From: Roseateles sp.
GTDB lineage: Bacteria > Pseudomonadota > Gammaproteobacteria > Burkholderiales > Burkholderiaceae
Length of the DNA stretch: 54,865 nucleotides
Direction of reading: 5' to 3'
Assembly (NCBI GenBank): GCA_019232985.1
Contig: JAFAMW010000031.1
Location: 1 to 54,865 of the forward strand
Below, piece by piece: positions 33,955 through 35,503 of the stretch (position 1 is the stretch's first letter; each line of letters begins with the position of its first letter). The notes beneath the pieces were generated by a model. That model was not told the DNA's origin and ran no database searches. It saw only the letters and a list, made by a program, of their open reading frames with translations. The position numbers and the translations under genes are program-made.

Positions 33955-34878
33955 TCAGGCCGCCGTCAGGGCCTTCTTCATCTTCTTCATCGCCGCGACC
34001 TCGATCTGGCGGATGCGCTCGGCCGAGACGCCGTATTCGGCGGCGAGCTCGTGCAGCGTCATGCCGCCCGACGCGTCGTCGTTGACCTTGAGCCAGCGCT
34101 CCTCGACGATGCGGCGGCTGCGCGCATCGAGCACCTCGAGCGCGCGCTGGATGCCGTCGCCGGCCAGCGCGTCGCGGCTGCGCGTCTCGATCACGCGGGT
34201 CGGCTCCTGGGAATCGTCGGCGAGGTAGGCGATCGGCGTGAACGCCTCGCCGTCGTCGTCGCCCTGGGGCTCGAGCGCGACGTCACCGCCGGCCATGCGC
34301 GTCTCCATCTCGAGCACGTCCTCGCGCTTGACCTTGAGCGTCTCGGCGACCTGCTCGATCTGCGCCTCGGTCAGGCTCGCGCGGTGCGTCGCGTCGTCGG
34401 CCGCGTGCTGGCGCAGGCTGTGCTTGAGCGAGCGCAGGTTGAAGAACAGCTTGCGCTGGGCCTTGGTCGTCGCGACCTTGACCATGCGCCAGTTGCGCAG
34501 GATGTATTCGTGGATCTCGGCCTTGATCCAGTGCATCGCGTAGCTGACCAGGCGCACGCCCTGGTCGGGGTCGAAGCGCTTGACGGCCTTCATCAGGCCG
34601 ACATTGCCTTCCTGGATCAGGTCGCCCTGGGGCAGGCCGTAGCCGAGGTACTGGCGCGAGATCGACACGACCAGGCGCAGGTGCGAGAGCACCAGGCGGC
34701 CGGCGGCCTCGAGGTCGTCCTTGTCGCGCAGCGCCGCGGCGGCCGAGCGCTCTTCTTCGGCGCTCAACAGCGGGAGTCGGTTCACGGCCGAGATATACGC
34801 GTCCAGATTGCCGAGCGAGGGCAGCATCGCCCAGGGCGAACGCAGCGCGACGGCGGTGGAGGCAGTGCTCATCGTCAT
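33955..34878 (-). CDS. rpoH: RNA polymerase heat-shock sigma factor (sigma-32)
   Basis: Directs transcription of chaperone and protease genes. Region 2 has LVLSHLRLVVSISRQYLGYGLPQGDLIQEGNVGLMKAVKRFDP and SYAMHWIKAEIHEYILRNWRMVK. The RpoH-specific box QRKLFFNLR follows. Region 4 ends the protein with a helix-turn-helix (LHELAAEYGVSAERIRQIEVAAMKKMKKAL). The product is ~307 residues from the ATG at 34878; ATGs at 34887 and 34872 are equally possible. The longest frame start (34914) lies inside the CIRCE operator and is rejected. Transcription is likely repressed by HrcA through that site. Confidence 0.93.
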   Translation of the reverse strand: MTMSTASTAVALRSPWAMLPSLGNLDAYISAVNRLPLLSAEEERSAAAALRDKDDLEAAGRLVLSHLRLVVSISRQYLGYGLPQGDLIQEGNVGLMKAVKRFDPDQGVRLVSYAMHWIKAEIHEYILRNWRMVKVATTKAQRKLFFNLRSLKHSLRQHAADDATHRASLTEAQIEQVAETLKVKREDVLEMETRMAGGDVALEPQGDDDGEAFTPIAYLADDSQEPTRVIETRSRDALAGDGIQRALEVLDARSRRIVEERWLKVNDDASGGMTLHELAAEYGVSAERIRQIEVAAMKKMKKALTAA

Positions 34879-34907
34879 GGCTTTCATCGAAAACGACGGG
34901 AGCCATG

Positions 34908-34934
34908 TTAGCACTCAACGCAGAGGAGTGCTAA
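34908..34934. promoter_or_regulatory. CIRCE operator (HrcA binding site) upstream of rpoH
   Basis: The sequence is TTAGCACTC, nine bases, GAGTGCTAA: an exact 9-bp inverted repeat with the canonical N9 spacer, matching the CIRCE consensus with no mismatch. It sits 29 nt before the chosen rpoH start. CIRCE is bound by the repressor HrcA, which is inactivated on heat shock. No chaperonin gene lies nearby, so rpoH is the only plausible target. No convincing -35/-10 pair could be assigned around it. Confidence 0.95.
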
Positions 34935-34956
34935 AGCCCGACCTTTTCACGGGCTT
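34934..34956. terminator. Hairpin between cheW and rpoH
   Basis: Inverted repeat AAGCCCG-N9-CGGGCTT (7-bp stem) lying between the cheW stop (34997) and the CIRCE element. Read leftward it is followed by TTAG, so it may weakly terminate the cheW transcript before rpoH. It abuts CIRCE by one base, which could instead make it part of the rpoH leader or promoter. Confidence 0.4.
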
Positions 34957-34996
34957 CACGAACCGGCGCGGAAAAATCAGATAGTGCCTACTGACT

Positions 34997-35503
34997 TCAG
35001 CCCATCAGGCCGAATTCGGGGCTCGTGATCATGGCCTCGATGTCGAGCAGGATCAGCAGGCGCTCGGCGAGCTGGCCGAGGCCCGTGATGAAGCGTGCGT
35101 CGAGCGCGCCGCCGAGCTCGGGGGCCGGGCGGATCGATTCGGCGTCGAGCTCGAGCACGTCCGAGACCGAGTCGACGACGACGCCGACGACGCGGTGGCC
35201 GACGTTGAGCACGATCACGACCGTGAAGCCGTTGTACTCGGCCGGCTGGCCCAGGCGCAGGCGCAGGTCGACGATCGGCACGATCACGCCGCGCAGATTG
35301 ATCACGCCCTTGACGAACGGGGGCGCATGGGCGATGCGCGTCGGCGCCTCGTAGGAGCGGATCTCCTGGACGCGCAGGATGTCGAGGCCGTATTCCTCGG
35401 CGCTCACGCGGAAGGTCAGGAACTGGCGGCCGGCCGCGCGGGCCTGGACGGTCGCGAGGGCGGTCGAAGCGGCGGGGGCGGCGGCGGGGACGAGACTGCT
35501 CAT
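34997..35503 (-). CDS. cheW: Chemotaxis coupling protein CheW
   Basis: 168-residue adaptor that links chemoreceptors to CheA. After a low-complexity Ala-rich N-terminus (~residues 1-25) it has the CheW core: [53 protein letters not shown] and [14 protein letters not shown]. No receptor, CheA or CheY gene is in the window. It lies between the leftward hybrid kinase gene (104 nt upstream) and rpoH. Confidence 0.94.

Follow-up and report, generated by a model that had tools for sequence, protein, structure and literature searches.

A predicted HrcA operator upstream of the sigma-32 gene rpoH in a Roseateles genome and its co-occurrence with hrcA across Burkholderiales

The textbook account of sigma-32 control derives from Escherichia coli. 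The E. coli rpoH gene is preceded by TGAACTT-N16-TCTGA, which we take to be the sigma-E-dependent promoter named rpoH P3. The same upstream region has no CIRCE element (the best candidate has 7 mismatches), and control searches gave no hrcA match. A 2003 study by Permina and Gelfand reportedly deals, by its title, with the same regulators and bacterial groups, and CIRCE at beta-proteobacterial rpoH may already be described there. In Geobacter sulfurreducens, CIRCE was predicted upstream of rpoH, at position -51, in 2004 (PMC545781); an rpoH gene preceded by CIRCE is therefore of an already known kind. This delta-proteobacterial case has the same consensus as the locus described here, TTAGCACTC-N9-GAGTGCTAA, with groESL as the constant other target; it is a prediction only, and the available portion of the report mentions no sigma-E or extended -10 overlay (PMC545781). 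It is also the one statement of CIRCE at rpoH among the matches listed from the open-licence literature, and the accessible text of PMC10490939 holds nothing on HrcA control of rpoH. SigE of Bordetella bronchiseptica transcribes the rpoH (fam) promoter region in vitro, in an account whose accessible part does not mention HrcA (PMC3490749). Unlike the Geobacter case, the gene analysed here is of the Burkholderiales type, and its pattern extends across order and class draws together with hrcA co-occurrence. Among the matches listed, as far as the accessible text of these sources goes, a sigma-E composite, a class-wide reach and a joint absence with hrcA are unreported. These aspects may tentatively be regarded as new, and the beta-proteobacterial case may be published.

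The window (the whole stretch of DNA that was analysed, 54,865 bases) carries rpoH, encoding sigma-32, on the minus strand at 33955..34878 (TIGR02392, 387 bits; cut-off, 323.1). Its product is nearest to RpoH of Roseateles and Pelomonas, family Sphaerotilaceae. Upstream of the gene, at 34908..34934 (no strand assigned), lies a perfect 9-9-9 inverted repeat of the CIRCE consensus, a predicted HrcA site. This is the sole match in the window at up to three mismatches, and no dinucleotide shuffle of the window contained one (0/100). A chance match is ruled out by these shuffles together with the conservation of the site at 79/79 readable named loci. When GroES and partial GroEL sequences of relatives, chosen as probes by motif, were run by tblastn, no match in the window was better than an E value of 0.6. 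The initial annotation, which had described a perfect CIRCE upstream of rpoH and far from any chaperonin gene, thus stands on these points. Its gap of 29 nt between operator and start codon holds for the ATG at 34878, becoming 35 nt if translation begins at the ATG at 34872. The operator therefore lies 29 to 35 nt before a heat-shock gene, where the promoter itself is putative.

Two further in-frame ATG codons, at 34887 and 34872, are alternative starts of rpoH. The starts of the closest relatives (acgATG) align by eye with the second of these, and either 34878 or 34872 may be the start. The longest frame opens with a GTG at 34914-34912 (minus strand), inside the right arm of the operator. Rejection of this GTG by the initial annotation is sound as an argument from position, since the codon would fall within both the operator and a putative -10 element. 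In 161/208 site-bearing rows, however, no stop codon interrupts the frame as far back as the operator, and thus openness alone decides nothing about the start of rpoH.

The initial annotation had proposed comparing the site in relatives, and it proved to be widespread. The first comparison used the 80 top-ranking rpoH loci from named genomes (G001 included), a set biased to close kin, of which L050 was excluded for want of upstream DNA. All 79 readable loci had CIRCE before rpoH at up to three mismatches, and the element was perfect in 52. The second used 150 genomes sampled evenly from the order, of which 145 had RpoH over the cut-off; the five genomes without it and G160, whose rpoH is cut by a contig end, were left out. 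Of the resulting 144 rpoH loci, 30 taken as loci and 114 as stretches, one had too little upstream DNA, leaving 143; L050, L056 and L211 were excluded before the count. CIRCE (up to four mismatches) preceded rpoH in 129/143 of these loci, the best sites having 0, 1, 2, 3 or 4 mismatches in 54, 46, 22, 3 and 4 loci, respectively. The remaining 14 loci (5 to 9 mismatches) were read as having no site, and one of them, L224, with 5 mismatches, as having a decayed copy. From 85 genomes drawn across the class, of which 76 had RpoH over the cut-off, 70 rpoH genes were obtained after the six lowest-scoring places over the cut-off (G180, G187, G211, G220, G221 and G232) were left out; CIRCE was found before 51 of the 70. 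No RpoH protein from the class draw exceeded 65% identity to an order row, compared with a median of 85% and a minimum of 64% between nearest rows within the order, and only L337 and L345 had their nearest neighbour among the order rows rather than the class rows. Thus, nearly all, perhaps all, of the class-draw loci lie outside the order. Two genomes have two rpoH copies each: in G206, one copy has CIRCE (1 mismatch) and the other does not (8 mismatches; L311/L313), and in G072 (L208 and L216) both copies have it.

Conservation of the site follows that of hrcA. Among the 80 named relatives, hrcA was found in 25/25 genomes tested, and in the order draw it was found over the cut-off in 131/150 genomes. 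By locus, the order draw gave 127 cases with both site and hrcA, 14 with neither, 2 with the site only (G077 and G169) and none with hrcA only; hrcA was therefore present at 127/129 loci with the site versus 0/14 without it (Fisher p 1.4e-17, with kinship ignored). The class draw gave 47 loci with both, 16 with neither, 4 with the site only and 3 with hrcA only. For these counts, the gene was scored as lacking in G110, one of the 14 order-draw cases with neither, where only a broken fragment of it remains. It was scored as present in G148, where it is split in two between separate contigs, and in G241, despite a match that fell below the cut-off. Pooling both draws (213 loci) gave 174 with both and 30 with neither, so that site and hrcA agreed in 204/213 loci. 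The nine discordant loci comprise 6/213 with the site but no detected hrcA and 3/213 with hrcA but no site, and these count against reading the element as an operator. As a measure that allows for kinship, independent pairs within the order alone gave 4 concordant, 0 opposite and 2 tied pairs (p 0.125). On the well-supported branches of the pooled FastTree tree, a mean of 6.6 of 9 pairs were concordant and none opposite (median p 0.016; range, 0.016 to 0.125). CIRCE is thus kept at orthologous rpoH genes and tends to be missing where hrcA is missing. Two class-draw genomes with hrcA and no CIRCE at rpoH, at L312 (G246, 6 mismatches) and L314 (G200, 8 mismatches), are either real exceptions or cases of different HrcA wiring. 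A published table, accessible in part, gives Laribacter and Chromobacterium as having HrcA and two Neisseria as lacking it (PMC3135505).

We scanned the 25 named genomes with the CIRCE pattern at up to three mismatches. This retrieved 55 CIRCE-like sites, one to three in each genome, against 8 for the reversed-pattern control. Their positions were 25 before rpoH, 25 before groES (in 24 genomes, with two in G005 and none in G012) and 5 before neither; thus, the HrcA regulon in these bacteria appears to be essentially groES and rpoH. The groESL CIRCE is the same operator in the same genomes as the rpoH CIRCE, and the two differ in their setting. By eye, the groES operator sits downstream of a promoter resembling the sigma-32 type (CTTGAA with CCTATAAT or similar). 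Unlike the rpoH operator, its right arm has no -10-like tail. The initial annotation had placed HrcA above sigma-32, and this placement is well supported by comparison, namely by order-wide conservation of the site, CIRCE at groES in 24/25 genomes, hrcA in 25/25 and joint absence. The possible second role of the right arm, as a -10 element, had gone unremarked, and the sigma-E promoters predicted over the operator in many relatives were beyond what the sequence alone could reveal.

At the rpoH operator, a putative -10 element, TAACAT (34905..34910, minus strand), overlaps the right arm and is preceded by a TG at 34912-34913, giving a candidate extended -10, TGCTAACAT, at 34905-34913. A putative -35 element, TTAGCA (34929..34934, minus strand; 4/6 to TTGACA), overlaps the left arm at a spacing of 18 nt. 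The sequence at the putative -10, GTGCTAANAT, occurs nowhere else in the window. A promoter scan with a threshold of 9/12 found nothing at the site, where the -35/-10 pair matches 8/12, and a promoter in the window is suggested by conservation. TGCTAAnAT is present in 76/78 named rows and 89/129 order rows, and TTRGCA is present in 65/78 and 95/129, respectively. When operator positions are counted from 1 to 27 along the strand of rpoH, the tail after the right arm in the 129 order rows has A at position 29 in 82% and T at position 30 in 98%, compared with T at position 30 in 1/25 groES operators. Because this tail is kept at rpoH and nearly absent at groES, it is best read as part of a predicted extended -10 (TGCTAA-N-AT).

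The right arm and tail are the best-conserved part of the site, and departures from the operator consensus fall mostly in the left arm (85 in the left arm versus 30 in the right for the order rows; 30 versus 1 for the named rows). This bias would be expected if the right arm doubles as a -10. The commonest order-row departures, at position 3, give TTGGCA or CTGGCA, of which TTGGCA is a better -35 at 18 nt. Such a pattern, with a right arm and tail held most firmly and a left arm tolerant of changes toward a better -35, might suggest that the site is kept as promoter DNA alone (an extended -10 in the right arm and a weak -35 in the left), its CIRCE symmetry having nothing to do with HrcA. We regard this as very unlikely, because a promoter has no need of a 9-9-9 palindrome, and intact hrcA is missing from the genomes of all 14 order-draw loci that lack the palindrome. 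One of these, L224, retains the promoter elements around a decayed palindrome. Taken together, these comparisons make it highly probable that the element is an HrcA operator lying on the rpoH promoter.

A second promoter is predicted over the same operator in many relatives. We scored sigma-E geometry as at least 5/7 matches to GGAACTT with TC..A 16 or 17 nt downstream, with shuffled upstream flanks as the control. This geometry lies over CIRCE in 82/129 order rows (shuffled mean, 2.4; largest, 7), in 26/78 named rows (0.9; largest, 5) and in 29/51 site-bearing class rows (0.8; largest, 4). Among rows with at least 6/7 matches, GGAACTT at -15, -13 or -11 is followed 16 nt on by TC at 8-9, 10-11 or 12-13, respectively (43/43, 13/13 and 20/20), and a fourth group with GGAACTT at -16 has TC at 17 nt (20/20). 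TC at 8-9 consists of constant left-arm bases, so that the informative base there is A at position 12 (41/43 and 17/20). The TCs at 10-11 and 12-13 fall in the free spacer and are therefore telling, the -11 group being mostly one clade. Like the site, its conservation and its link to hrcA, this geometry in relatives is a computed result, and it is the same as that before E. coli rpoH. It is absent from the 32 loci closest to the window (L001-L032). A search for GGAACTT-N16/17-TCnnA found none in the window, the best -35 there being 4/7, typical of shuffles. The window has CIRCE and no sigma-E promoter, and E. coli rpoH has the sigma-E geometry and no CIRCE.

The repeat could instead act in mRNA, as a 5' stem-loop. 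Under an overlying sigma-E promoter, the geometry would place the predicted start near the spacer or right arm, and the repeat would then be partly transcribed. In the window, however, transcription is predicted to begin downstream of the repeat, which would lie outside the mRNA unless there is read-through. That the repeat and hrcA are absent together points to the protein. We therefore consider an RNA role extremely improbable and retain the reading of the repeat as a DNA operator.

Genomes without hrcA differ in what is kept at rpoH. L224 (G059, without hrcA) retains GGAACTT-N16-TCATA and TGATAAAAT, between which lies a decayed CIRCE with 5 mismatches, and this locus is a natural experiment. 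Only L224 and L214 among the 14 site-less order loci have GGAACTT (at least 6/7), N16 and TCnnA, and the idea that the sigma-E promoter is kept wherever hrcA is lost was rejected on this count. A broader proposal is that ancestral rpoH control in beta- and gamma-proteobacteria was composite, with one HrcA operator over sigma-E and sigma-70 extended -10 promoters and the folding state gating both inputs, and that the E. coli wiring is derived. The low count among site-less loci (2/14) took this proposal down a small step, and we now hold it to be only marginally favored.

The surroundings of the operator bear on how much transcription it could govern. A cheW-like gene on the same strand (34997..35503, minus; its sole family match, CheW NF007903, at 191.8 bits is below the cut-off of 260) ends 62 nt upstream. 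Between this gene and the operator, an inverted repeat, AAGCCCG...CGGGCTT (34934-34956, minus strand), resembles a weak terminator without a T-run; a scan for terminators lists none. A partial dyad, AGTCAGTAGGCACTATCT (34979..34996, minus strand), lies 44 nt upstream of the operator and matches a motif of several relatives at 13/16 positions. Dyads near AGTTAGTGnnCACTCTCT occur 44 to 70 nt before CIRCE in the window and in L002, L006, L007, L010, L013, L022 and L023. The only two other matches of at least 13/16 in the 80 named loci lie inside the rpoH match (L052 and L080). The partial dyad may be the site of a further regulator of rpoH. At the start of the predicted leader, a possible small hairpin, CGUCG-UUUU-CGAUG (34885..34898, minus strand), folds weakly (shuffle z, -0.5). 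Early-leader hairpins of differing sequence with z of -1.7 or lower were seen in 8 of the 38 rows folded (L001, L002, L003, L007, L008, L011, L018 and L068). With z at -0.5 in the window and a mean of -0.68 over the 38 rows (single-base shuffles), we do not claim the leader hairpin as a thermometer.

In E. coli, sigma-32 is controlled by translation and stability, and such control may dominate even if HrcA binds. HrcA might accordingly bind and matter little, with rpoH mRNA arising mostly by read-through or from another promoter. The nearby cheW-like gene and the leader hairpins of some Roseateles-type relatives are in keeping with this, as are the several transcription starts of rpoH in Cupriavidus metallidurans, described in the accessible part of PMC7563307. 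In nitrogen-starved Xylella, according to the accessible part of PMC3224663, rpoH rose twofold while groESL fell, hrcA having risen fourfold at 2 h. If Xylella rpoH has CIRCE, such opposite moves of rpoH and groESL run counter to the parallel response that two HrcA targets should show. Both arms of the operator are nevertheless conserved in the order draw and in the class draw, which argues for a fitness effect, and we judge a minor role for HrcA unlikely.

We infer HrcA binding, repression and the inducing signal, under the favored reading of the element as an HrcA operator, along the following lines. The right arm of CIRCE would contain a sigma-70-type extended -10 and the left arm a weak -35. 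HrcA bound at the operator would keep RNA polymerase off the rpoH promoter. Repression would fall when unfolded protein draws GroEL from HrcA or when heat unfolds HrcA itself. HrcA of Bacillus depends on GroEL. For Campylobacter HrcA, intrinsic thermosensing has been described (PMC8533110, from the part accessible). Derepression would raise rpoH mRNA together with groESL, the other HrcA target in relatives, and the rise in sigma-32 would switch on the wider heat-shock regulon. Where the operator would also cover a sigma-E promoter, as in many of the beta- and gamma-proteobacteria examined, HrcA would gate the envelope-stress input to rpoH as well; the lineage of the window lacks this second promoter. 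Published transcript data, as given in the accessible part of PMC12617022, point both ways. In a heat-resistant Caballeronia, transcripts of RpoH and of GroEL were higher at 36 C than at 30 C; in the same comparison only ClpB rose in a heat-vulnerable one, and HrcA itself rose in the heat-resistant one, two observations that count against the reading.

If HrcA stands above rpoH in much of the class, HrcA repression and sigma-32 activation would be one cascade rather than alternatives, with groESL and sigma-32 both set by the availability of chaperonin. If the composite proposal is true, the cytoplasmic folding state, acting through HrcA, would gate both envelope-stress and housekeeping input to sigma-32. 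Among lineages without hrcA, some (E. coli, with what is presumably rpoH P3, and L224) would then keep a bare sigma-E promoter and others would lose it. The E. coli wiring, with rpoH free of a repressor, would be a derived exception, and the group to which the window belongs would represent a third state, with the operator kept and the sigma-E promoter lost. Lineages that lack both the site and hrcA serve as natural experiments.
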